Source: Nitrospirota bacterium (GTDB lineage Bacteria; JACPQY01). From it: a DNA stretch of 64,000 nucleotides. Positions 1,621 to 59,899 of this stretch are shown here, piece by piece. Each line of letters begins with the position of its first letter. Position 1 is the first letter of the stretch. The position numbers and the translations under genes were made by a program. A model generated the notes under the pieces. It saw nothing but the letters and a program-made list of their open reading frames with translations. It ran no database searches and was not told the DNA's origin. The DNA is taken from NCBI GenBank assembly GCA_016180645.1, contig JACPAV010000002.1, positions 62,001-126,000 on the forward strand, in the 5' to 3' direction.

Positions 1621-3618
1621 ATGGCTTACGATGTGATCGTTGTTGGGGCCGGGCACGCCGGGTGCGAAGCCGCGCTTGCGGCGGCGCGAATGGACTGCTC
1701 CACGCTGCTGGTAACGCTCTCGCGGGAGGCCATCGCCCGGATGAGCTGCAACCCGTCCATCGGCGGAATCGGAAAAGGCCACCTCGTGAAGGAAATCGAC
1801 GCGTTGGGCGGCGAGATGGGCCGGAACACGGACAAGGCCGGGATTCAGTTCCGGCGGCTCAACATGAGCAAAGGCCCCGCCGTTCGCGGCACCCGCGCGC
1901 AGTGCGACCGCGGTCTCTATCACCTCTTCATGCGCCGGACGATCGAATCCCAGCCCGGGCTGACCGTGGTCGAGACTTCCGCCGAAGGTTTCCTCTTGCG
2001 AGCCACGAGCCACGAGCCACGGGCCACGATATGCGGAATCCGCTGCTCCAACGGCGCCGAGTACGAGGCAAAAGCCGTCGTCGTCACGACCGGTACTTTC
2101 CTTTCGGGACTCATTCACGTCGGCATGAAAAACTGGTCGGCGGGGCGATGGAACGAGCCCCCTTCAATGGGTCTCTCGGCCGCTCTCGCACGGGCGGGCT
2201 ATCGCCTCGGCCGATTCAAGACGGGCACCCCCCCGAGGATCGACGCCCGGACGATCGATTTTTCCCGGCTGGAGGTTCAGGCGGGTGACGAACCACCGCC
2301 GCCGTTTTCACTCGCCACCGAGCGCATTGAGCAGCCTCAAGTGCCGTGCTGGATCACCTCCACTCACGGCGGCACGCACGACATCATCCGGCGCAATCTG
2401 GACGTGTCGCCGTTGTATCGCGGCATCATCCAGGGGCTCGGCCCCCGATACTGCCCCTCCATCGAAGACAAAATCCACAAGTTTCCCGATCGGACCCGTC
2501 ACCAGATCTTTCTCGAGCCCGAGGGCTACGACACATTCTTCCCCGCCGAATCCCAATCCGGAATTTCAAATCTGAAATCCGAAATTCCCGGTTCGTCTTC
2601 ATCTCAAATCTCAAATCTCAAATCTGAAATCCCCTTGATCTATCCGAACGGCATATCCACGAGTTTGCCGGAAGAGGTGCAGCGGGAGTTCGTCCACACG
2701 ATCCCCGGACTCGAAGAGGCGAGACTGGCCCGTCCCGGCTACGCCATCGAATACGACTACGTCGATCCCACCCAGCTCTGGCCGACACTCCAGGGCAAAC
2801 TCACGGAAGGGCTGTTCCTGGCGGGCCAGATCAACGGCACCACGGGATATGAAGAGGCGGGAGCGCTCGGCCTCGTCGCCGGCATCAATGCCGCGCTCAA
2901 GGCGCAGGCGCTCCAATCGTGGGTACCTCGTCGGGACCAGTCGTACATCGGCGTGCTCGTGGACGATCTCGTCACCAAGGGAACGAACGAACCTTATAGG
3001 ATGTTCACCTCCCGCGCCGAGAACCGTCTGGCCCTCAGAGAATCCAACGCCGACCTCCGTCTCCGCGAAACCGGCCATCGGCTCGGACTCGTTTCGAACG
3101 AGGAATTCGCCGGCTATCAGGAGAAGGTCCGGGGAATCGAATTCGGCCTGGCCGCCTTGCGCGAAACGCGGGTTACACCGTCGGCCGATGTCAACAACCG
3201 CCTTCGCTCCCAAGGGTGGCCGCCCATCGACAAAGTGACCACACTCGAAGAACTCCTCCGCCGCCCCGAAGTGACTCTGGATCGGCTGTTGGCCTTCTTC
3301 TCTGAGTTTTCTCCCGCCTCCCACCTCTCACCTCCCGCCTCCCACCTTGAAATCGAACTCCGGACGAAATACGACGGCTACCTTCGCCGTGAATCCCAGC
3401 TTAATGAACAGGCCCGCGCGTGGGAATCCCATCCCATCCCCGAGGCATTCGGCTTCCGCGGACTGAATGGGCTTTCGCGCGAAATGGTCGAAAAACTCGA
3501 CCGGGTCCGGCCCCGCACGCTCGCCCAGGCCTCGCGCATACCGGGTGTCACCCCCGCCGCGGTTGCGGTCCTCATGGTCCACCTCAAACGTTTCCCTATC
3601 GAGGCCAAGCCTCTATAG
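1621..3618 (+). CDS. mnmG: tRNA uridine-5-carboxymethylaminomethyl modification enzyme MnmG (GidA)
   Basis: This FAD-dependent enzyme works with MnmE to install the (carboxymethyl)aminomethyl group at C5 of wobble U34 in tRNAs, in the cytoplasm. The N-terminal Rossmann motif [18 protein letters not shown], the block [43 protein letters not shown] and the C-terminal helical domain ([25 protein letters not shown]) are all family hallmarks. At 665 residues it is longer than the usual 620-630. The excess is three low-complexity insertions at surface-loop positions: around 2000-2028, 2562-2633 (between [11 protein letters not shown] and [10 protein letters not shown], normally contiguous) and 3311-3348. 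Each is built of short tandem repeats kept in frame. The last codons and stop lie in a 23-bp palindrome. mnmE is 28 kb away in this window. Confidence 0.97.
2000..2028. repeat. heptamer repeat inserted in mnmG (1)
   Basis: About four copies of a GAGCCAC-type heptamer, encoding ATSHEPRAT between conserved MnmG segments. The reading frame stays open. Confidence 0.75.
2562..2633. repeat. heptamer repeat inserted in mnmG (2)
   Basis: Two arrays of a CAAATCT/GAAATCC heptamer, partly inverted relative to each other. They encode two ISNLKSEIP copies that separate [11 protein letters not shown] from [10 protein letters not shown], which adjoin in typical MnmG proteins. The insert is about 30 residues and in frame. 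Confidence 0.8.
3311..3348. repeat. heptamer repeat inserted in mnmG (3)
   Basis: A CCTCCCA/CCTCTCA heptamer array encoding [12 protein letters not shown], placed just before the conserved KYDGYLRRE segment. It is in frame. Confidence 0.75.
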
Positions 3619-5797: not shown

Positions 5798-6586
5798 CCG
5801 ACCTGCGGCAACCATCCCTTCCAAGAACCGAAGGACGCGGTCGGGATTGGCCAGCCGGTACCGCGCGGCGGTGGCTCTCGGCCTGCCCACTCGGATGGTA
5901 ATTCCTTCGCGCCGGAGGGCCTTGAACGCCGGCTCGTCACTCCGGTCGTCCCCGATGTAGACCACCAGCGGATTTCGCTCCAGTCCATTCCGGCCCAGCA
6001 GGGCCTCGGAAACCGCCCACCCCTTGTCGATACCCCGCGCGCCAATCTCCAGCCCGTAGGCGTTCTCGGTCAGGTGGAGCGAACGGGCCTGATCCACGAT
6101 CTTCATCCGCCGCCGGGCCATATCGAGCACTTCCCGCCGACGGCCGGCCGGCAGCGTCCGCGCCTGGATCCCCACGCACCCCCATTTGTCTTCGAGGATG
6201 AGCTCCGGATGACGCCGGAGGTCTTTCCGAAGCAGCGCGTGAAGGTGGGCGATCGCGGGACGCAACGATCGAATCCTCGGGTGCCAGGCGGGTTTTCGGC
6301 CGGGGCGTTTGATCTGCGCCCCGTAGGCGCCGAAGTAGGTCAGCCCGCGGATGGGCAGCATCTTGGAGAGTTGGCTCGCGCTTCGTCCGCTGACCATCAC
6401 CAATCGGATCCCCGGCGTTTCCACCAGGGCGCGAAGAAGGCAAACAAGCCTTTCCGACGGCCTGGCCTTCGCAGGCCGATCCTGAAGTTCCACCAGCGTC
6501 CCGTCATAATCCAGAAGGAGAATGAGCCCGCCGCTGAAGTCTCTCGCCCGCCGCACCAGCGCGGCCACCCGTTTCAGGTGCGCCAT
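5765..6586 (-). CDS. otsB: trehalose-6-phosphate phosphatase
   Basis: A HAD-superfamily phosphatase of 273 residues, converting trehalose-6-phosphate to trehalose and phosphate in the cytoplasm. Motif I LLLDYDGTLVE lies near residue 25, motif II is VMVSGRS, and motif IV VVYIGDDRSDEPAF lies near residue 218. Length is normal for stand-alone OtsB. It starts 3 bp after the otsA stop, so the two are co-transcribed. Its end overlaps the convergent debranching-type gene. Confidence 0.93.
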   Translation of the reverse strand: MAHLKRVAALVRRARDFSGGLILLLDYDGTLVELQDRPAKARPSERLVCLLRALVETPGIRLVMVSGRSASQLSKMLPIRGLTYFGAYGAQIKRPGRKPAWHPRIRSLRPAIAHLHALLRKDLRRHPELILEDKWGCVGIQARTLPAGRRREVLDMARRRMKIVDQARSLHLTENAYGLEIGARGIDKGWAVSEALLGRNGLERNPLVVYIGDDRSDEPAFKALRREGITIRVGRPRATAARYRLANPDRVLRFLEGMVAAGRSVRAKDHARA

Positions 6587-31321: not shown

Positions 31322-32740
31322 GTGCGAAACGACACGATCGTGGCCATCTCAACTCCCCCCGGAATCGGCGCCCTCGGCATCGTGCGTCTCAGCGGACCGG
31401 AGGCATTGGATATCGCAGCAAGATCCTTCGATCCCGTTGGGGCGAGGCATGCCTCGCCCCTACAGCCCCGCCACGCCCACTTCGGCCGCCTCGTCGATCA
31501 TGACACGGGTGAAACCGTCGACGAGGGCATTCTAACCTGGTTCCCCGCCCCCAACTCCTACACGGGGGAAGACGTCGTGGAAATGTCTCTCCACGGAAAT
31601 CCCCTCATTCTCGAAAAGGCCGTCGGTCTCCTCTGCCGACTCGGTGCCCGATCCGCCTCACCCGGTGAATTCACCCGTCGGGCCTTCTTGAACGGCAAGA
31701 TCGATCTGGCGCAGTCTGAGGCCGTGGCCGATATCATCGGGGCGTCCAGCGAAGCAGCCCTGCGGGCGGCGCGACGCGTGAAACAGGGGGATCTCTCCCG
31801 CGAGGTCGCCAACTTGAGGGAAGAGATCATCGCCGCGCTCGGATATACCGAAGCCGTGATCGATTTCGCCGAGGAACCGGACGTGCAGGAACACGCACGG
31901 GTCGATATCGAAACTCGACTGAAGAAGTGCGAATCGATGATTACTGGACTCCTCGCGCTCCACGGAAAGGCGCGACGACTCAGGGAGGGATCCATCGCCC
32001 TCCTGGCCGGAGAACCCAACGTGGGGAAATCCAGCCTCATGAACCGCCTCACGGGTCGCGACGTCTCCATCGTCCATCCGACTCCCGGGACCACCCGTGA
32101 TGTGGTGCGAGAATGGATTGAGATGGACGGCTTCCCCGTCGAACTCCACGACACCGCCGGCCTCCGCCCCACCTCCCACCTCTCGCCTCTCACCTCTCAC
32201 GACGAGATCGAATCCCAAGGGATCGCCAGGACGAAAGACCTCTTCGATCAGGCCGACCTCATCGTCTGGGTGCTGGACGCCAGTGCGCCAAGAGGCGTTC
32301 GTTCCGTCGAGGAATTCGCCCAATGGATGAACCAGGCCAACGGCTCGCTCGCCCGAAGCATTTTCGTATTGAATAAGTCGGATCTGGGCAGCACCGTCGA
32401 TCTCTCATGGCTCCCCTCGCCGTCCACAGACGTCGTCCGCGTTTCCGCACTCACCGGCGAAGGTGTCGGAAACCTGCGGAGGGCCTTGGGGGAGAAGCTG
32501 GCCTCCGGAATTCAGTCCAACTCCGAGATGCTCCTTCTGCGACCCCGGCATGTCCAGTCCCTGGAGATGGCCCGTGCCTCCATCCAGGAATGCCGGAACC
32601 GGCCTCTCGGCGAAACCGCGCCGGACCTCCTCGCCATCGACCTGCGCGAAGCGGTGGCACACCTCGACGAAATCACCGGCACGATCTCCACCGAAGATCT
32701 TCTGGACCGTGTATTCTCCGATTTCTGCGTGGGCAAGTGA
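31322..32740 (+). CDS. mnmE: tRNA modification GTPase MnmE (TrmE)
   Basis: 472 residues from a GTG. MnmE forms the U34-modifying complex with MnmG. The N-terminal tetrahydrofolate-binding domain (TIVAISTPPGIGALGIVRLSG), a helical domain (EAVADIIGASSEAALRAARR) and a G domain are present, with G1 GEPNVGKSS, G3 DTAG, G4 NKSD, and the C-terminal CVGK (family C[IV]GK). Two inserts occur. GARHASPLQPR comes from a REP-like hairpin at 31437-31463. PTSHLSPLTSH comes from a heptamer array at 32168-32200, directly after DTAGLR in the switch II region. The second is unusual because switch II moves during GTP hydrolysis. Confidence 0.96.
   Translation: MRNDTIVAISTPPGIGALGIVRLSGPEALDIAARSFDPVGARHASPLQPRHAHFGRLVDHDTGETVDEGILTWFPAPNSYTGEDVVEMSLHGNPLILEKAVGLLCRLGARSASPGEFTRRAFLNGKIDLAQSEAVADIIGASSEAALRAARRVKQGDLSREVANLREEIIAALGYTEAVIDFAEEPDVQEHARVDIETRLKKCESMITGLLALHGKARRLREGSIALLAGEPNVGKSSLMNRLTGRDVSIVHPTPGTTRDVVREWIEMDGFPVELHDTAGLRPTSHLSPLTSHDEIESQGIARTKDLFDQADLIVWVLDASAPRGVRSVEEFAQWMNQANGSLARSIFVLNKSDLGSTVDLSWLPSPSTDVVRVSALTGEGVGNLRRALGEKLASGIQSNSEMLLLRPRHVQSLEMARASIQECRNRPLGETAPDLLAIDLREAVAHLDEITGTISTEDLLDRVFSDFCVGK
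31437..31463. repeat. single-hairpin REP-like element in mnmE
   Basis: GTTGGGG, a perfect hairpin gcgaggc/gcctcgc, CCCCTAC. A one-hairpin variant of the 1529-type element, in frame within the N-terminal part of mnmE. Confidence 0.7.
32168..32200. repeat. heptamer repeat in the mnmE switch II region
   Basis: Between four and five copies of CCTCCCA/CCTCTCA, the same heptamer as in mnmG at 3311. In frame, encoding PTSHLSPLTSH. Confidence 0.75.
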
Positions 32741-32783: not shown

Positions 32784-33590
32784 ATGGCGCGTTCCAGGTC
32801 TTTCGGTCTCACAGGCTCACGGGCTCACGGGCTCACGTGCATCCTACTGTTCACTGTTCACTGTTCACTGTTCACTTCCTCCTGCGCCTGGTCGAGGAAG
32901 AGTACCCGCGATGGCTCAGGGCCTGCCGCGGAATCCAGCCCCGAGCCGGCCGCTCCCCGGCGCGCCCTCGTGGTCGATTTCGAAGCCGACCCCCGGGAAC
33001 GTGAGGCAGTCCTGGCTTCCTTGAAATCGATCCAAGGCCTCCAAATTGAAGAGATCAAGTCCTCCAGCCTGTCGGATCGGACGCTCCTGTACTTCAAGCC
33101 CGATTCGAAAGACGATGCCGGTCGACTCATGGCCCGCACCAAGGGCGCCATGGCCATCGACTCCATGCCCTGGGGAGGGCCTTACGACATGGTCGTCTTC
33201 CTAAGGAGCAAAGGCTCGGCCGCGGCCAAACCCGATATCCCGCCGCCCGCGCCCAAGCCCGCGCCTCCAAGCTCGGAAGTCGTGTACTACGTCACGGCAC
33301 AAAAGTACTTCCGGATCGCCCAGCATCAGGCCACCCCGGAAGGAACCGTCACGCTCACCATCGAAAAATCCGGGGACAGCCAGAAATGCTTTCCCAAGGT
33401 GACCCTCCGGGCCATGACGGAAGACCGGCAGGTTGTTTCCGAGGACACGATCAAGGCAGAATCCTTCCTGACCGCCCTCGTGGGCTACCGGGAAGATCTC
33501 AAGCTCTCCTACCCGCCCGAGCCGCGGGTGAAAAACCTGCAAATCGAAATCAAGGCATACGACGAGAAGGGTTCGATCATCCTGAACTGA
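32784..33590 (+). CDS. putative exported protein with repeat-derived signal peptide
   Basis: 268 residues from the ATG at 32784. The hydrophobic N-terminus (LTCILLFTVHCSLFTSSC) is encoded by tandem TGTTCAC heptamers. A cysteine after TSS could be a weak lipobox. The body starts with RRALVVDFEADPREREAVLASLKSIQG (possible small alpha/beta domain, residues 55-150), then a proline linker (PPPAPKPAPPSSE). The C-terminal beta-rich region (VVYYVTAQKYFRIAQHQA, VTLTIEKSGDSQKCFPKVTL) resembles an Ig-like fold. No known family recognised. It lies 43 bp downstream of mnmE and may be co-transcribed with it. Confidence 0.65.
   Translation: MARSRSFGLTGSRAHGLTCILLFTVHCSLFTSSCAWSRKSTRDGSGPAAESSPEPAAPRRALVVDFEADPREREAVLASLKSIQGLQIEEIKSSSLSDRTLLYFKPDSKDDAGRLMARTKGAMAIDSMPWGGPYDMVVFLRSKGSAAAKPDIPPPAPKPAPPSSEVVYYVTAQKYFRIAQHQATPEGTVTLTIEKSGDSQKCFPKVTLRAMTEDRQVVSEDTIKAESFLTALVGYREDLKLSYPPEPRVKNLQIEIKAYDEKGSIILN
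32807..32876. repeat. two tandem-repeat arrays encoding a signal peptide
   Basis: About three copies of the octamer GGCTCACG followed by four copies of the heptamer TGTTCAC. Three heptamers span 21 bp, or seven codons, so the array codes for a repeating hydrophobic peptide. Confidence 0.8.
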
Positions 33591-33746: not shown

Positions 33747-36355
33747 TATTCCAGCCCTACCGGTCCTAGGAAGAAAAACGGCCCTGCCTCAAAGTCAAGA
33801 TTCAATAGAGAGGCCGGAGCGGCCACCAGAGTCTTGAGGAAGCTGCGCAACGCCTTCGGACGCGGCCACTCCACCACGCGAAGATCCGCATCCTCCGGGA
33901 TTCCGGCCTTTTCACGCGCCAGATCCAGGCTTTCGAGCAGTCCCCCCTCCCGGTCCACGAGCCCGCGCTCGCGGGCCTGCCGCCCCGTCCACACCCGGCC
34001 CCCGGCCAAACCTTCCAGCGCCCCGGCTTCGAGGCCGCGGCCCTCCCGAACTTTGTCCAGAAATACCCCGTACCACGCATCCACGCCCTTCTGAACCTCC
34101 TTCACCTGCTCCGGCGTGAGAAGCGTCACATCCGACTCGACATCGGCATGACGCCCCCGCTTGAGAATCTGCTTTGTGATGCCCAATTTCTCATACAATC
34201 CCTTGAGCACGAACTTCCCGTAGAACACTCCGATGGATCCGGTGATCGTCGCGCCGTCCGCGAGGACCGGCCGGGCGCCCATCGACAAATAGTACGCACC
34301 GGACGCACCAACGCTCCCCATGGAGACGACCACCGGCTTTTTCTGCGAAAGCCGCCGAACCGCCGCCCAGATCTGATCGGAGGCGAAAACATCCCCTCCG
34401 GGACTGTTCACGCGGAGCACCACCGCCCGCACGCTCCTCGCGCCTTCCAATCTCCGGAGCACCGCCACCATCGAATCCGCGAAGGTCGCCGCCGATGTGA
34501 AGAACGGGAATCTCCCTCCTTCGCCTCGGGCCAAGACTCCTGAGACATAAACCACGGCGATGGTTTCCGGGGCGGCCCAACTTTCGCCCGATTCGTACTC
34601 CGCCTTCACCCGGGCTTCATCCCAAACGCGCGATCGGCTTCCGACACCCTGCCGCACCTGCTGCTGGGCCTCCTCCCATGTGGACGTCCCGTCGACAAGA
34701 CCTTCGTCCACGGCCTCCTGCGCGCTCAGAAAACCCCGGTCCACCAACGCTGCGACTTTTTCGCGGGACAGCCTTCGCCCCTCGGCAATTCCCTCCACCA
34801 TCTGGTCGAACAGGTCCCCCAGCATGGAGTCGAGGTTCTCCCTATGCTTGGGTGAAAACTCCTTTTCGGTGAACTGTTCCGGCGCCCCTTTGTATTCGCC
34901 CGCGCGCACGAACTGGGGCACCACGCCCAGCCAGTCCAACGTGCCCTTGAAAAACATCCCTTCGATTTTCAATCCCAGTAGCTCCAAGTGCCCGTGGGGA
35001 TAGAGGAGGATTCGGTCCGCCGCCGTCGCCAGGTAGTACTCCTTCAAGGCGAACGCTTCGAGATACGCCACGACGGTCTTCCCTTTCTTCCTCAGCGCTC
35101 CCATGAGCGAGCGGATTTCCTGTAGCCGCCCCAGGTCCACGTTGAGGGAGCGAATTCGGAGAAGTACAGTGTGGACTTCCTCATTCTCCGCCAAGCGCCT
35201 GATCCGCGCCGCGAACTCGAGAAAATGGTCCCGTTCATCGAAGAGAAACGAGACCGCGCGCTGGTCGGGCAGTTCGGAGGGGACGAGAATCTCCGCCACC
35301 GCATTCTTCTCAAAGAGGGAATCCTCATGGGCCGCGCCGTGCAGATGGAGCATCGCCAACGCGGGAGTGATCGCCGTCTCGGAACCTCCCGGACCCGAGG
35401 CGGCCGTCGCCATCGCCTGGTAGCCGACACGCGCATGACGGGTCTTCAGAAGAAAACCCAACAACATGGTCTTGCGTTCAAGACCGTCGTCCGTTCGGAA
35501 TCCGGATTGGAGATGCACTCCGGGCTTGAGAACCTGGTCCCAGCCGAGGTCGAGGACCCCGATCGACGACCGTGCACCCTTCACGCCGGTGAACATCTGT
35601 TGCCAATCCGCCGTCACCGTGGTGAGGCTCTTGAAGGGCCGGACCCCCACGCCGATCCTAGGGCTGACCTCGATCGGTTGTTTCGGGTACTCGTCTTTCG
35701 TGTTGGCAAGCCTGAAGTTTGAATCGGCGCGATCGATCGGGACCAACCCCCGGCCGTTCTGACTGCCGAGGTTATAAAGCGCGAGGCCGACGGACACACG
35801 AGGCGCGCGGTAGAGGACACCCAAGTCCACCAACCCCAATCGATCAAGGCCATGGCCGGTCCCGCCGTCCACGGCATGGAACGACAAGCCATAGTGAAAC
35901 CGATTGGCTCCGAAGCCAAGACCGATTGAACCTTTGATCAATGAGTTGGGCAAGTCCCCCGAGGATCCGGTTTCGGGCGCCCCCCCCTCCTCCGGCTGAG
36001 AAACTTCAGTTCCACCGCCAGGCAGATCCGCCGTCGATCTGTCCATCCTCTGCGCGGAAACTCCCAGGGGACCGCTGTGCATCAGGAGACCGAACCGATT
36101 CCCTCCGCCCTCCGCGGGTGGCCGATTATAGAAGAAGGATGTATTCCATCCCGGCCCCACGCCCAGGCCCGCCGGGTTCATTTCGAGGAGATTCGACGCC
36201 TCCGGATAGGCCACCGACGCGGGGAAAAACATCGCGCCCTCACTCCGGGGATCCAGCGGAGCTGCCCGCACGGGCACCGTGATGAGTGAACAGTGAAGTG
36301 TGATGAGAAAAATCAGGATCCGCAATTCTCGCCGGGGTTTCACTTCACTCTTCAC
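33746..36355 (-). CDS. signal peptide peptidase SppA-type serine protease with N-terminal outer-membrane-like domain
   Basis: 869 residues, compared with about 600 for E. coli SppA. A signal peptide (ILIFLITLHCSLITVPVRA) is partly encoded by heptamers. Residues 32-330 look like a PorV/UPF0164-type beta-barrel module (ASVAYPEASNLLEMNPAGLGVGPGWNTSFF, GLGFGANRFHYGLSFHAVDGG, VGLALYNLGSQNGRG). Residues 345-860 are a tandem SppA module. The putative Lys lies in RAGEYKGAPEQF (equivalent to the E. coli VGTYKSAVEP lysine), and the nucleophile Ser in VSMGSVGASGAYYLS, with RVNSPGGDVFASDQ. It probably cleaves peptides in the periplasm or near the outer membrane. The fusion is notable; similar long SppA proteins are known in myxobacteria, as far as I recall. 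Confidence 0.85.
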   Translation of the reverse strand: MKSEVKPRRELRILIFLITLHCSLITVPVRAAPLDPRSEGAMFFPASVAYPEASNLLEMNPAGLGVGPGWNTSFFYNRPPAEGGGNRFGLLMHSGPLGVSAQRMDRSTADLPGGGTEVSQPEEGGAPETGSSGDLPNSLIKGSIGLGFGANRFHYGLSFHAVDGGTGHGLDRLGLVDLGVLYRAPRVSVGLALYNLGSQNGRGLVPIDRADSNFRLANTKDEYPKQPIEVSPRIGVGVRPFKSLTTVTADWQQMFTGVKGARSSIGVLDLGWDQVLKPGVHLQSGFRTDDGLERKTMLLGFLLKTRHARVGYQAMATAASGPGGSETAITPALAMLHLHGAAHEDSLFEKNAVAEILVPSELPDQRAVSFLFDERDHFLEFAARIRRLAENEEVHTVLLRIRSLNVDLGRLQEIRSLMGALRKKGKTVVAYLEAFALKEYYLATAADRILLYPHGHLELLGLKIEGMFFKGTLDWLGVVPQFVRAGEYKGAPEQFTEKEFSPKHRENLDSMLGDLFDQMVEGIAEGRRLSREKVAALVDRGFLSAQEAVDEGLVDGTSTWEEAQQQVRQGVGSRSRVWDEARVKAEYESGESWAAPETIAVVYVSGVLARGEGGRFPFFTSAATFADSMVAVLRRLEGARSVRAVVLRVNSPGGDVFASDQIWAAVRRLSQKKPVVVSMGSVGASGAYYLSMGARPVLADGATITGSIGVFYGKFVLKGLYEKLGITKQILKRGRHADVESDVTLLTPEQVKEVQKGVDAWYGVFLDKVREGRGLEAGALEGLAGGRVWTGRQARERGLVDREGGLLESLDLAREKAGIPEDADLRVVEWPRPKALRSFLKTLVAAPASLLNLDFEAGPFFFLGPVGLE
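36280..36307. repeat. heptamers within the SppA-type signal peptide codons
   Basis: Units such as TGAGTGA, ACAGTGA and AGTGTGA encode LITLHCSLITV in the signal peptide. Related words continue in the 5' leader to 36366. Confidence 0.6.
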
Positions 36356-36372
36356 CCATCACTCCTCACAAC

Positions 36373-38489: not shown

Positions 38490-39722
38490 ATGGTCTCGAA
38501 GGACATCCCCTTGGACGCCGACTTGGAAGAACGGCCCTCCGCTCCCGGCGAGGGCCTTCGCTTCAGCGAGTTTTTCGAAGATCCCTTCGCGCAGATGAAG
38601 GAGATGCCGCCCAAGCCGGCCCCCCCCGCCGACCTTCGTCATGCTCCCCCCCCCCGACGGGACTCCAAGGTCCTCCCCTTCGAGGAGGTGGCGGAGGCGA
38701 AACCCGAAAAAGACGAAAAAGCCAAGGGGGACGAGGCGGCGGAGATGAAGATCGCGCAGATTACGGTCGCCAAGCAGTACCAGTCTCTCCGCAAGCAGCT
38801 CCACCGATTCTTCCAGGAAGTGGAGGAGAAGGGCGCAATCGTGGACATGGATGGCATCATCGCTCCGCTCACGGAAATTATGGCTCACCTCCAAGATCAC
38901 GAGGACTTCTATGTATACAGGGTCTTCTCCGTCTCCAAGGGGGACTACGAGGCCGACCCCCTGCTGTATCACTCGATTGACGTGAGTCTCCTCTCGGCAG
39001 TTCTGGCCTCTAGCCTGGGTTTTGCCTCCGCCGCCCAGATGCTCGAAATCGCCCTGAGCGCAATTCTGGCGGATGTGGGCATGTTGATTACGTGCAAGGA
39101 TCTCTGGTCCAAAACTGAAACCCTGACCGAAGAGGACCTGTCCAGACTGCATGAACATCCCATCGCCAGCTTCAAGCTCTTGAAACCCGTCAAGGGGCGC
39201 TTCCATTTTCTGGATCTCGTGGTCCTTCAAATTCACGAGCGGGAAGATGGAAGCGGGTATCCCAACCGCCTCACGTCGGCGCAAATCCATCCGTTCGCCA
39301 AGATCATCGGTCTGTGCGATATGGTCGAAAGCCTTACACATCCCCGCAGTTGGCGCGATGCGCACACGCCCTATGACATGGTGAAAATCCTGCTGGCCGA
39401 GGGAAGGAAGTTGTTCGATCCCAAGATTCTCAAGCGGTTCCTGCAGCGGATCACGCCCTTCCCACCGGGAACCCTCGTCCAACTCAACACCGGAGAGTTC
39501 GGCCACGTCATCCGGGTGAACCGCGACAATCCGCTCAGACCCGTCATTCACATCGGAGGAACCAAGCGCGGTGACGCCGGAATCGATCTCAAGAAATCCC
39601 CGTTGCTCTACGTCGTCAAATCGTTCAAGCCGGGAGAACCCCTGCCGGCCGCCAAACCCGCCGCTACCGCGGCGCCAGGATCTGATGTCGATTCATCTCG
39701 CCGTCCCCGGAGCATTGCGTAG
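38490..39722 (+). CDS. degenerate HD-GYP domain protein
   Basis: 410 residues. Residues 1-110 are a low-complexity Pro/Lys/Glu-rich linker containing C8 and C10 runs. Residues 150-320 form an HD-GYP-like helical domain. It keeps HSIDVSLL, HEHPIASFKLL, HEREDGSGYP and IIGLCDMVESL, but HDIGK reads ADVGM and the HHE of the family reads IHE. Two metal-ligand histidines are therefore missing, and phosphodiesterase activity against c-di-GMP is doubtful. A C-terminal beta region (PPGTLVQLNTGEFGHVIRV) is common after HD-GYP domains. The final residues are encoded by the first unit of a tandem array. It probably acts as a c-di-GMP-linked or structural regulator of the export genes. Confidence 0.78.
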   Translation: MVSKDIPLDADLEERPSAPGEGLRFSEFFEDPFAQMKEMPPKPAPPADLRHAPPPRRDSKVLPFEEVAEAKPEKDEKAKGDEAAEMKIAQITVAKQYQSLRKQLHRFFQEVEEKGAIVDMDGIIAPLTEIMAHLQDHEDFYVYRVFSVSKGDYEADPLLYHSIDVSLLSAVLASSLGFASAAQMLEIALSAILADVGMLITCKDLWSKTETLTEEDLSRLHEHPIASFKLLKPVKGRFHFLDLVVLQIHEREDGSGYPNRLTSAQIHPFAKIIGLCDMVESLTHPRSWRDAHTPYDMVKILLAEGRKLFDPKILKRFLQRITPFPPGTLVQLNTGEFGHVIRVNRDNPLRPVIHIGGTKRGDAGIDLKKSPLLYVVKSFKPGEPLPAAKPAATAAPGSDVDSSRRPRSIA

Positions 39723-39851
39723 GGGGCGGCGCCAGGATCTCATGTTGATTCATCTCGCCGTCCCCGAAGCGAAGCGGAGTGGGGCGGCGCCAGGATCTCA
39801 TGTTGATTCATCTCGCCGTCCCCGAAGCGAAGCGGAGTGGGACGGCGCCCT
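39671..39851. repeat. tandem array of 57-58 bp units
   Basis: Units start at GGCGCC: 39671, 39728, 39786, with a truncated fourth at 39844. Spacings are 57, 58 and 58 bp. Each unit holds an imperfect hairpin (CGCCGTCCCC ... GGGGCGGCG). The first unit encodes the last residues of the HD-GYP protein; the other two lie in the gap before the fusion gene. Confidence 0.9.
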
Positions 39852-39898: not shown

Positions 39899-42415
39899 AT
39901 GACTGAATATCCCCGATTGCGCATGATGCTCGCCGCGCTCCTTTTTGCGGCGTGCGCGAAACAACCGCTGATCAAAAAAGACGCCCCCGGATGGTCCCTC
40001 GTGCGGGGCATTTTCGAGACGAACGGTTTCTTCCGCGATGTGGCCGTCGGCGACGTCAACAACGATGGGTATCTGGACGTCATCGGAGGCAACTCCAAGG
40101 TGGGAGGCATCAACGTTTGGCTGAGCTCGGCGGAGGGATCCCGCCTGGACCTCTCCATGCTGATTCGGAAGAATCTGCTCGTGGACACGATTGAGATCGG
40201 CGATGTGAATAGCGATGGTTGGAACGACATCGTCGCCTCCCCCAGCGGCCGAGGGATCGAGGTCCTCCTCAACGGTCGGGACGGAACCTGGTATTCCGCC
40301 GGGATGCTGGCCCAAGGCGGTTCGTATTCCACCCTTCGAATGACGGACCTGAATGGCGACGGCGCGGTGGACCTTGTGGGATGCAACTTCCAATATCGCG
40401 ACCAAATCGCCGGGATCCAGGTGTGGTTGAATACCGGCAAGGGCAAGTTCGATACGGACACGGGCCCTCGCTCGGAAGGCCAGTGCCGAGATGTCATCGT
40501 CACCGACTTCGATGGAGACAACAAGCCGGACATCGTCGCCGCCTTCTGGGGCCCCACAAGCTCCGTGCGAATCTGGCGAGGAGACGGTCGAGGGGGCTGG
40601 TGGGCCTACCCCATGTCCCCCCAAATGAAGCAAGGCATCTGGAGTGTTGGGGTGGCCGACGTGGACAAGGACGGACTTAAGGATCTCCTCGTGGCGCTGT
40701 ATCCCAACAGGGGCGTCTCCGTGATCCGCAACAAAGGGGAGGACGGCTGGGAGAAACCCAAGCCGATCTTCAAACGGGGCAATTTCTGGAAGATCTGGGT
40801 CGGCGACCTCAATGGCAACGGCCAGCTGGACTTGGTGGGGGCCTCGCACACCGGAGCCGGCATGCAATGGTGGCAACAGGATGGATCGTGGCAGATTCAG
40901 GATGTCGGGCTTCCCATTCGAGGTGATTATTACGGCTTCCGGGTCGGCGATCTCAACGGCGATGGAACACCTGAGATCGTCGCCGCTTCCTACGGCGAAG
41001 GTATCCGCCTCTGGTCCACGGGGAACGCCGGAAAGCTTTTCGGTAGCGCGAAAACCGGAATACTCCCGGTGGGCACGACCCCTCTGGAATTGGATTCGAC
41101 GTCGGAAACCGGCAATTATCGCCGGGCGCCCCTCGAGACGACCATCGTCATCTACTTCGACCATTCCCAAATCGCCCTTTCGGCCCAGGCCAAATCCGCG
41201 CTCGAATACGTCGTGGCCTTCATCAAGAAACATCCGGGCGCCACGGTCGAATTGGTGGGCCACGCCGAGCCGGACGCGCAACTCCCACCCGCGATTGAGA
41301 ACTTGGAGAAACTCTCGCGGATCCGCGCCGAGTCCGTTGGAGATTATCTGTCCGAGCTGGGGGTGAACAAGAGCCTCATCACCTTCAGCGCGCTGGGCGA
41401 AACCGCTCCCCTCTCCCCCGTCCCAGAGGCCAATCGAGCTGTGGAAGTGGTCATCAAGCTGCCCGAAGCCGAGCTGCCACAGTCGGCGTCTCAGGCAGCC
41501 GCCGGAACCGAGATCCCGCCGCCACCGCGGTTTGTCGAAGAAAGGCCGTATGTCATCGGGCCGGGGGACGTTCTGGCGATCACACTTTGGCAGAGAGGCA
41601 AACCCGAAGCCTATGTCGTGAATGTCCGGTCCGATGGAACCATCTCCTTCCTTTTTCTTCGGGATGTCATGATCGCAGGCAATAGTGTGAAGGACGCCAT
41701 CGCCGCCCTCGAAAACGAATTGAAGCGATACTACAAGGAGCCGCTGGTCGATGTCGTCGTCAAAGAGTTCAACAGCCAGCGGGTTCTCGTGATCGGCGCC
41801 ATCGGAGGAACGACTGCTGCCGCGGGATCACGCGTCGTGCCGCTCTCCAAGCCCACCCGCATCGTGGAGGTAATCGCCGCCGCCGGGGGGCCGAACATCG
41901 ATGCGGATCTGAAAAACGTCTCCATCGCCAATCCGCAGGGGCAGACGCAGTACATCAACATGTTCCGGGTTCTCTTCGAAGGCGACCAATCCCAGAACAT
42001 CTACGTGTCGCCCGGAGAGGTCGTCTTCGTCCCCTCCCTGCAGCAGTCGGTCAACCGCATCTACGTATTCGGCGAAGTCCTGCAACCCGGCGCCTTTCCT
42101 CTTCGCGACGGGGCCACCATTCTGGATGTGATCGCGGATGCAGGGGGCTACTCCCTCCAAGCCAAAATCAGCGGCGTGGGAATCCTCAGGCCCGGCCTGG
42201 AGCGACCTGAAATTCTCACCGTCAACCTTGAACGATTGGTCAAGAAGGGAGACAGCACCCAGAATATTCCGATTCAAAACCGCGACATCATCTACGTGCC
42301 CCGACACGCCATCTACACGATCAACCAATGGGTGGCCGCGTACACTCAGTTGGCGGGAAGCGTCTTGCTTCCCTTGAACTTGGTGACCCAGATCAACGCC
42401 CTTCAGAAGCAGTGA
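39899..42415 (+). CDS. beta-propeller / OmpA-like / polysaccharide-export (Wza-type) three-part fusion lipoprotein
   Basis: 838 residues, with AGGAGG 7 bp before the ATG. Lipobox LLFAAC. Residues 35-370 contain seven FG-GAP/VCBS-like blades, each with a DxNxDGxxD calcium-type loop (GDVNNDGYLDVIGG, GDVNSDGWNDIVA, DLNGDGAVDLVG, DFDGDNKPDIVAA, DVDKDGLKDLLVA, DLNGNGQLDLVGA, DLNGDGTPEIVAA). Residues 410-520 are OmpA-C-like (TIVIYFDHSQIALSAQAKS, VELVGHAEPDAQLPPAI). Residues 545-830 are a polysaccharide-export domain (YVIGPGDVLAITLWQRG) plus SLBB repeats (VFGEVLQPGAFPL). It probably sits at the outer membrane as an export pore bound to peptidoglycan. This architecture is unusual in my knowledge. Confidence 0.88.
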   Translation: MTEYPRLRMMLAALLFAACAKQPLIKKDAPGWSLVRGIFETNGFFRDVAVGDVNNDGYLDVIGGNSKVGGINVWLSSAEGSRLDLSMLIRKNLLVDTIEIGDVNSDGWNDIVASPSGRGIEVLLNGRDGTWYSAGMLAQGGSYSTLRMTDLNGDGAVDLVGCNFQYRDQIAGIQVWLNTGKGKFDTDTGPRSEGQCRDVIVTDFDGDNKPDIVAAFWGPTSSVRIWRGDGRGGWWAYPMSPQMKQGIWSVGVADVDKDGLKDLLVALYPNRGVSVIRNKGEDGWEKPKPIFKRGNFWKIWVGDLNGNGQLDLVGASHTGAGMQWWQQDGSWQIQDVGLPIRGDYYGFRVGDLNGDGTPEIVAASYGEGIRLWSTGNAGKLFGSAKTGILPVGTTPLELDSTSETGNYRRAPLETTIVIYFDHSQIALSAQAKSALEYVVAFIKKHPGATVELVGHAEPDAQLPPAIENLEKLSRIRAESVGDYLSELGVNKSLITFSALGETAPLSPVPEANRAVEVVIKLPEAELPQSASQAAAGTEIPPPPRFVEERPYVIGPGDVLAITLWQRGKPEAYVVNVRSDGTISFLFLRDVMIAGNSVKDAIAALENELKRYYKEPLVDVVVKEFNSQRVLVIGAIGGTTAAAGSRVVPLSKPTRIVEVIAAAGGPNIDADLKNVSIANPQGQTQYINMFRVLFEGDQSQNIYVSPGEVVFVPSLQQSVNRIYVFGEVLQPGAFPLRDGATILDVIADAGGYSLQAKISGVGILRPGLERPEILTVNLERLVKKGDSTQNIPIQNRDIIYVPRHAIYTINQWVAAYTQLAGSVLLPLNLVTQINALQKQ

Positions 42416-58369: not shown

Positions 58370-58449
58370 GATCCCATTTTACCCGCCCACTCCCCACCGA
58401 ACAAGACCGCCGCAGGGTCAGCCCTTTTTCAATGCATATGATCGGGATG

Positions 58450-58528
58450 ATCGGTGACAGTATACTCTATTACAATAATAGGTGACAGAATACTTTATTA
58501 GAGAGAATAATAGTATACTGTCACCGAT
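58450..58528. repeat. AT-rich inverted-repeat element (MITE/REP-like)
   Basis: Perfect 17-bp terminal inverted repeats, ATCGGTGACAGTATACT (58450-58466) and its complement (58512-58528), with a third, direct GGTGACAGNATACT copy at 58481-58494. The 79-bp element is strikingly AT-rich in a GC-rich region and has no coding content. It lies in the 195-bp gap between the 184-residue-type gene and ecm. Confidence 0.8.
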
Positions 58529-58564
58529 TATCCATCCGCTGACGTCGTCCCCTTTTAACCAGCG

Positions 58565-59077
58565 TCAGTCGCTGGCGCCGCCGAGAATAAGCCCGCCCCA
58601 CTTCCACGTGTTCCCCTCGGAAGGGACAGTGGTAGGTCCAAAATAACAGCCATAGATAGATTGAAAGGGAAGTCCTGAGATCGCTGGGACATCAGTATCG
58701 AAATACATGGTGCCCGCTTGTGATGCGTCGCACGGAAAGGGGGCCGTAGCAGAACGATGAAGCTGCAGGGCACCACCTTCAATAGTCAGCTTGTTTGCCG
58801 GGCTCGCCGTCCCAATCCCCACGTTACCTTCGGTGTAGATGGCGTTCGCACTGCTCTTGGTCCAGTTCGGAAGGCCCTCGATGGCCTTCTTGAGGTTGCC
58901 GAGCGAAGTGTTGAGGTCGTCCGCGACCAGCGCCTCGCCGGTCGTCCAAGTCTTGACCGTTCCCACCGTCACGGCCAAGGCAACCGTCGCAATAATACCC
59001 ACGGTTATTCCCGCGCCGAGCAGCAGACCTTTTACGAACACTTGAATTCTCTTTGGACACCTCCTCGATTTCATCAT
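58565..59077 (-). CDS. membrane-anchored protein with tail-fibre-like GNVGIGT repeat motif
   Basis: About 170 residues from the ATG at 59077, which overlaps the upstream stop by 4 bp (ATGA). One membrane anchor (GLLLGAGITVGIIATVALAV), then helical region, then the phage tail-fibre/collar-like motif GNVGIGTASPANKLTIEGG and a beta-rich end. Probably surface-exposed and coupled to the fibronectin-III lipoprotein gene. Function unknown. Confidence 0.7.
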   Translation of the reverse strand: MMKSRRCPKRIQVFVKGLLLGAGITVGIIATVALAVTVGTVKTWTTGEALVADDLNTSLGNLKKAIEGLPNWTKSSANAIYTEGNVGIGTASPANKLTIEGGALQLHRSATAPFPCDASQAGTMYFDTDVPAISGLPFQSIYGCYFGPTTVPSEGNTWKWGGLILGGASD

Positions 59078-59899
59078 CCCAGGATGCACGAGCCGATCTT
59101 GGACGACCCTACAATGCACGTGGATCTTGCATCCGGTTGGGACGGCTGCGCCGGGACGTCCGGCGTGGGGGGCTTGTCCGACAAATCCACCAACGGAGTC
59201 GCCGACACCTCACCCGACCTTTCGCTCTCGCTCTTGGAATTGAGGGCTGAGACAGCAAAGAAGTAAACCTGACCGTTGTTGAGACCCGTCAGCCTCGCAT
59301 TCAACGCACCCGTTATGCTCACCGGCGAGGCACCCTCCTTCGCTTCCTTGCCCTCGTAGGGTCCGCCCGTCTTCGCGCCATAGTAGATCCGGTACTCGGC
59401 TGCTCCCGCCGACGCTTCCCATGACAGGGCCACGGAGGCGTTTCCCGTTCGCGCTTGAAGGTTCCTGGGCGGCTCAGGCGCCGCCGTGATCGCCCCAAGC
59501 GCAACGCTGATTTCCGGGGAGGCCGGCCCTTCCCCATCGGGTGCGGTCGCAGAAACCTCGAAAAAGTACGTGAGGCTCGGTTCCAAGCCGTCGATCAAGA
59601 CCCTCGACACATTCCCAACGTCGGCCGGTGAATTCCCGATTGAAAGCCCCTTGCCCTTGCGCGCGGCGCTTTTCGTGTCGTGGTAAACCAGGTACCCGCG
59701 GGCCCCCGCCACGAGGTCCCACGAAAGCGTCACATTGTTCTCGCCGATGACGGATCGGACGTTCTGCGGCGCAGGCAACCCCTCAAGGAGCCTTTTCTCA
59801 GCTTCCGCGGAGCAGGCGCTGAGGATCAGCGCGAGCGGGAGGACGATTCTAGGGTATGACTGTGAGTGAGTGAGTGAGTGAGTGCAAGATTCTCACCAT
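59074..59899 (-). CDS. fibronectin type III lipoprotein gene, out of frame at its 5' end (putative phase-OFF)
   Basis: Two FnIII domains (PAPQNVRSVIGENNVTLSW; EPPRNLQARTGNASVALSW) and a Cys-containing tail. The open frame encodes a good lipoprotein leader ending LPLALILSAC but has no start codon, being closed upstream by TGA. An ATG at 59899 begins MVRILHS and hits TAG after 16 codons because of five TGAG units at 59863-59882. Removing one unit (or adding two) joins it in frame to a complete lipoprotein signal peptide. Without that, only an internal TTG (59778) remains, lacking export signal. It likely encodes a surface adhesin-type protein. Confidence 0.75.
59861..59884. repeat. tetranucleotide tract (TGAG)5 in the leader of the FnIII lipoprotein
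   Basis: Five TGAG units with TG on each side, in signal-peptide codons. Slippage by one unit changes the frame. No other tract of this kind was seen in the window. Confidence 0.9.

Follow-up and report, generated by a model that had tools for sequence, protein, structure and literature searches.

Is the short tetranucleotide tract in the first codons of a lipoprotein gene in this window (the whole 64,000-nt stretch of DNA that was analysed) a slipped-strand on/off switch, or has the gene simply been broken there by a frameshift? The elements concerned are as follows.

59897–59899, minus strand: ATG start codon of the start frame, aligned with the GTG start of a paralogue (see below).
59862–59884, minus strand: tetranucleotide tract (CACT)5CAC, off-frame with five units.
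59849–59851, minus strand: TAG stop that closes the start frame after 16 codons.
59074–59850, minus strand: lipoprotein frame, with the rest of the signal (RIVLPLALILSAC), two FnIII domains and the C-terminus STCIVGSSKIGSCILG.
58565–59077, minus strand: second gene of the cassette, for a secreted, possibly fibre-like protein (P0002), whose ATG overlaps the lipoprotein stop.
58445–58533, no strand assigned: REP-like palindromic element with 22-nt arms (GGTGACAGTATACT...AGTATACTGTCACC), directly downstream of the cassette.

On the minus strand the tract lies in the context ATGGTGAGAATCTTG-(CACT)5-CAC-AGTCATACCCTAG and starts 15 nt within the ORF that begins at ATG 59899; seen on the plus strand, it is an uninterrupted run of 5.75 copies of GTGA/TGAG (59862–59884, 100% matches). 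From this ATG up to the tract the codons are ATG GTG AGA ATC TTG (MVRIL). At five units the product is MVRILHSLTHSLTVIP, followed by TAG at 59851–59849, which bears out the five TGAG units and the stop after 16 codons described in the sequence-only reading of this DNA. That reading had also stated that the downstream lipoprotein frame has no start, and this holds: the frame is open over 258 codons in the window copy, a TGA lies immediately 5' of the tract, and the first ATG, GTG or TTG is TTG 59778, located behind the lipobox cysteine.

The CACT unit, being 4 nt long, is not a multiple of three and is situated in the 5' coding region. When the products for 1 to 10 units were tabulated, the two frames were found to be joined at 1, 4, 7 and 10 units, giving full-length products of 269–281 aa; at 2, 3, 5, 6, 8 and 9 units the off-frames terminate early, with products of 12–29 aa. 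The loss of one unit or the gain of two, proposed earlier to restore the protein, leads to four and seven units, both of which join the frames.

The signal of the joined frame, MVRILHSLTHSQSYPR-IVLPLALI-LSAC, comprises a charged n-region, a hydrophobic core and a lipobox. It was judged by inspection, using the lipobox pattern [LVI][ASTVI][GAS]C and no predictor. Pfam matched fn3 (PF00041) twice in the lipoprotein frame (61.2 bits against a cut-off of 25; 1.1e-16). The lipoprotein signal and the two FnIII domains previously assigned to this gene are thus upheld, the former by inspection and the latter by Pfam. The product is presumably located at the surface. A role as an adhesin, which had also been suggested, is unsupported, there being nothing past the lipoprotein signal and the FnIII domains to speak for it; no adhesin family was among the Pfam results and no match was obtained with NCBIfam. 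A scan of the genome contig collection with the lipoprotein as query returned no relatives of it. When the same query was compared with sixty relatives, similarity outside G001, a genome from another genus of the same family, was confined to the FnIII domains.

The tract is beyond chance. Sampling 0.90 Mb of the genome yielded four tetranucleotide tracts that are 15 nt or longer, against none in a second-order Markov control. Counts of simple sequence repeats (SSRs) cover 1.69 Mb of the 4.7-Mb genome, where three tetranucleotide tracts reach at least 19 nt, namely the window tract, the tract of the paralogue and a (CCTG)12. The 15-mer CACTCACTCACTCAC occurs in the whole 4.7-Mb genome solely in the window gene and its paralogue.

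This paralogue belongs to a second copy of the two-gene cassette, which a search of the own genome located on contig C31 (G000:C31). Its lipoprotein matches that of the window in two pieces with 76% and 67% identity; the second gene comes next, in a copy of 82% identity. At the DNA level the similarity extends from about the start codon to inside the second gene, and the genomic place is unrelated. The C31 tract is (CACT)4CAC, and here the ORF MRTNSLVVRFLHSLTHSQSYPRFLLLLFALTFAACSAEAEKRL.. passes through the tract into the lipobox, reading PRFLLLLFALTFAAC. A relative with another unit number and a preserved downstream frame, the check called for by the sequence-only reading, therefore exists within the same genome, although this copy carries a frameshift of its own further down: a separate 1-nt deletion in the first FnIII domain, with a TGA after it. 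Given this deletion and the five units of the window copy, the assembly is without any intact copy of the full lipoprotein gene.

The C31 codons that precede the tract, counted from its GTG start, are GTG GTT CGC TTC TTG (VVRFL). Over codons 2–5, four of 12 bases differ between the copies, and V-R-[I/F]-L is kept in the ATG frame; in one copy the alternative frame is interrupted by a stop. This retention despite the base differences, together with the stop in the other frame, indicates that the pre-tract frame is coding. Save for one unit, no base differs between the copies in the tract or in the stretch behind it through CCTAGA. Behind the tract, the lipoprotein frame shows a dN/dS of 0.226 against the paralogue (dS 0.35), whereas the two wrong frames give 1.5–1.9; it has evolved under purifying selection. 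Both frames have thus been kept as coding sequence, on the strength of the V-R-[I/F]-L retention and the dN/dS, and they join only at particular unit numbers. From the paralogue comparison, the dN/dS and the restriction of the CACT tract to these two genes, we infer that the tract is coding, old and changed by one unit; the window copy is most simply explained by a one-unit slippage change. In its anatomy the tract matches a slipped-strand contingency locus.

The second gene is tied to the first by the overlap GGATGATGA, which holds the lipoprotein stop and the ATG of the next gene, as had been noted. Its protein consists of an N-terminal part (VKTWTTGEAL...GNVGIGT) and a variable C-terminal part; over the 83 conserved codons dN/dS is 0.074, a sign of strong constraint, and the frame is open. 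In the C31 paralogue the gene starts at GGAGGTGTCCG-ATG, and SD-ATG starts are also present in G001. In the window the ancestral SD-ATG has become AAG (59053–59051); the frame extends upstream without a stop as far as the ATGATGA overlapping the lipoprotein stop, and no SD was seen there. Because its own SD-ATG is AAG, the window gene seems to depend on the overlapping start, although translation could instead begin at a GTG in the same frame, a few codons further in. The suggestion that an OFF state might lower translation of the next gene therefore has stronger support than was noted at the time, the SD-ATG lost here being present in both the paralogue and G001.

P0002 matched no family in Pfam or NCBIfam, and neither a Peptidase_S74 chaperone domain nor fibre repeats were found in it with these collections. 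A scan of the genome contig collection with the second gene returned G001 records and a Leptospiraceae MAG (L108) only. In the latter, two proteins share the N-terminal part of the second gene and carry Peptidase_S74 (2.1e-20), a domain of fibre proteins, which points to a surface fibre as the product of the second gene. Near its 3' end, the homologue of the second gene in G001 carries a poly-G run some 12–13 nt long (L060, ~6246–6259), where slippage could vary the C-terminus.

G001 (JACPQY01, Nitrospirae bacterium NC_groundwater_665) contains the cassette twice. The pair shares with the window the gene order, the FnIII pair, a Cys-containing C-terminus and a protein of the form VGT[VI]KTWT...PNWT. 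Unlike the window, neither copy has a CACT tract, the N-termini are different, and the two are separated by an antisense gene whose product is a small coiled-coil membrane protein. The copy on G001 contig C2 has a lipoprotein gene without the signal region; that on G001 contig C10 is intact.

The window cassette follows a crotonyl-CoA carboxylase/reductase gene (TIGR01751, 578 bits) at a distance of 72 nt and precedes a B12-dependent acyl-CoA mutase. With this match and this neighbour, the ethylmalonyl-CoA setting claimed for the locus is plausible. There is no sign that a switch serves that pathway, since the neighbours of the C31 copy are unrelated. No RNA family was found at the locus with Rfam, and no promoter-like or terminator-like site near the start of the cassette. 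The REP-like element downstream belongs to a family with about 30 similar places in the genome, many of them found on both strands, and is probably outside the switch.

We propose that (CACT)n turns a surface lipoprotein gene on and off as a slow slipped-strand switch, a reading to which we assign a probability of roughly 0.55. Strand slippage in replication would add or remove four bases at the tract. With one, four or seven units, the ATG frame would enter the lipoprotein signal and the FnIII protein would be made, the in-frame unit numbers altering only the length of the signal n-region; with other numbers, translation would end within 30 codons. The assembled window copy with its five units would then represent the OFF state, and slippage at the tract is likely to be reversible and ongoing. 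If the second gene starts at ATGATGA, without an SD, only ribosomes that have completed the lipoprotein should translate it, and the OFF state would silence it too through loss of translational coupling. The earlier designation as a contingency locus stands as far as the frames, the unit arithmetic and the difference in units between the paralogues are concerned; it is weakened by the disruption of both assembled copies and by a tract at the lower size limit. By the size criterion applied for phase variation (tetranucleotide, at least five units, uninterrupted), the window tract with 5.75 copies lies exactly at the limit and the paralogue tract with 4.75 copies below it. A further-reaching version is somewhat doubtful and offered tentatively: two paralogous surface cassettes, each with its own (CACT)n signal-peptide switch, of which the window switch couples two genes since the second has lost its own ribosome-binding start, would provide phase variation of the surface coat in a bacterium without a known host, from an uncultured groundwater-type lineage.

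The main rival to the switch is that the extra CACT is an ordinary slippage indel, which inactivated a dispensable gene of a family that is being lost; the tract would then be a mutable spot and not a selected switch. We regard this as a real possibility, at distinctly less than even odds. Three of the four known cassette copies are broken, each differently (the tract in the window, the 1-nt deletion in C31 and the loss of the signal in the G001 C2 copy), and the window second gene also lacks an SD-linked ATG. The broken copies in the own genome, the G001 copy without a signal region and the absence of the tract from G001 likewise weigh against the switch. On the other hand, the window lipoprotein frame is otherwise undamaged over its 258 codons, the second gene is open and constrained (dN/dS 0.074), and the lesion sits exactly in the sole tract whose unit changes undo it. 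A dN/dS of 0.226 since a duplication at dS 0.35 means, moreover, that any inactivation must be recent.

That the fifth unit is a sequencing or assembly error, the real genome having four, is improbable. The assembly is a draft of 65 contigs, probably from a metagenome, and four units do join the frames in the paralogue; but at 23 nt the tract falls well within the length of a usual read, it is some 122 kb inside a contig of 370 kb, and tetranucleotide indels are not a usual type of short-read error. We consider it more improbable still that the protein is made from another start, be it a rare start codon in the lipoprotein frame or, for a cytoplasmic form, TTG 59778, with the tract exerting no control. 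This TTG is in frame, but the form starting there would lose the signal and the lipobox, no ATG, GTG or TTG occurs between the in-frame TGA and the lipobox, and the start position and pre-tract codons are kept in the paralogue.

Programmed frameshifting at the tract was rejected, as no slippery heptamer was found by eye. A missing MutS as the cause of the tract was ruled out, MutS being present.

Most known SSR contingency loci come from host-adapted pathogens and commensals. In Neisseria opa, a pentamer tract is positioned in the signal-peptide codons; as in the window, the repeats thus fall within the signal of a multi-copy surface protein family. The opa product is an outer-membrane barrel, whereas in the window a tetramer occupies the n-region of a lipoprotein signal, ahead of FnIII domains. 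Some opa copies, with 1–4 units, are below the phase-variation cut-off (PMC5953494). The tetranucleotide contingency loci of Haemophilus influenzae (PMC2651432) resemble the window in that the tract is near the start codon and within the reading frame, unit changes toggle between full-length product and early stop, and the genes concern surface structures. Their tracts are usually longer, with 8–16 units cited at one locus (PMC2651432), and vary between strains, whereas the five and four units seen here are known from two paralogues of one assembly. Cut-offs for tetranucleotides differ, from at least three units in the H. influenzae survey (PMC2651432) to at least five in phasome surveys (PMC5953494, PMC6321876); those of the last-named survey admit tracts that perhaps mutate at less than 1e-5, too slowly for efficient switching (PMC6321876).

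The window locus is thus of known design throughout, and what is unusual is that it occurs in a barely sampled environmental lineage and is backed by a pair of paralogues. The paralogue comparison provides a clean argument, as both frames are constrained and are joined only at certain unit numbers. If well supported, the switch would suggest that stochastic switching of surface proteins is useful to free-living bacteria as well, perhaps against phages or grazers. If the gene is decaying, the locus is an ordinary frameshift.

Other repeats in this genome were recorded alongside. No tetranucleotide repeat in the 1.69 Mb sampled is longer than the (CCTG)12 at G000:C6:33395–33443 (L092:13395–13443). 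It precedes by about 170 nt the ATG of a lipoprotein-like gene (L092:13223, minus strand) with an FnIII-like part and a formylglycine-enzyme-type part, as read by eye, and is a better-sized candidate for phase variation, which would act via promoter or leader length.

Tandem heptamer arrays of 3–5 copies (ATCTCAA, ACTGTTC, CTTCACT, ACTCATC and others) are numerous, both at gene ends and within genes. Those in the window lie at 1999–2029, 2601–2631, 3311–3347, 32170–32200, 32846–32876 and 36343–36369; elsewhere they were found at L120:19407, L073:5876 and L077:3795. Several encode residues resembling signal peptides (ILLFTVHCSLFTSSC in the window, LKLITHHSSLITLAALILAASC in L120), and a change of a single unit shifts the frame. 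The heptamer arrays at gene 5' ends may mean that short tandem tracts are tolerated rather than selected.

G/C homopolymers of at least 10 nt numbered 34 in the 0.90-Mb sample, against one in the second-order Markov control. Most are exactly 10 long and lie within long ORFs (window positions 816, 20639 and 38646, and 31 other places). Among perfect arrays of short units in the sample, the longest is an 88-nt array of a 10-mer (GTTCTCCGGG, 8.8 copies) at L064:120–207 (G000:C31:120–207). Finally, a 58-nt unit is repeated 3.1 times with 92% identity at window positions 39669–39849, at the end of the gene at 38490–39722 and before that at 39899.
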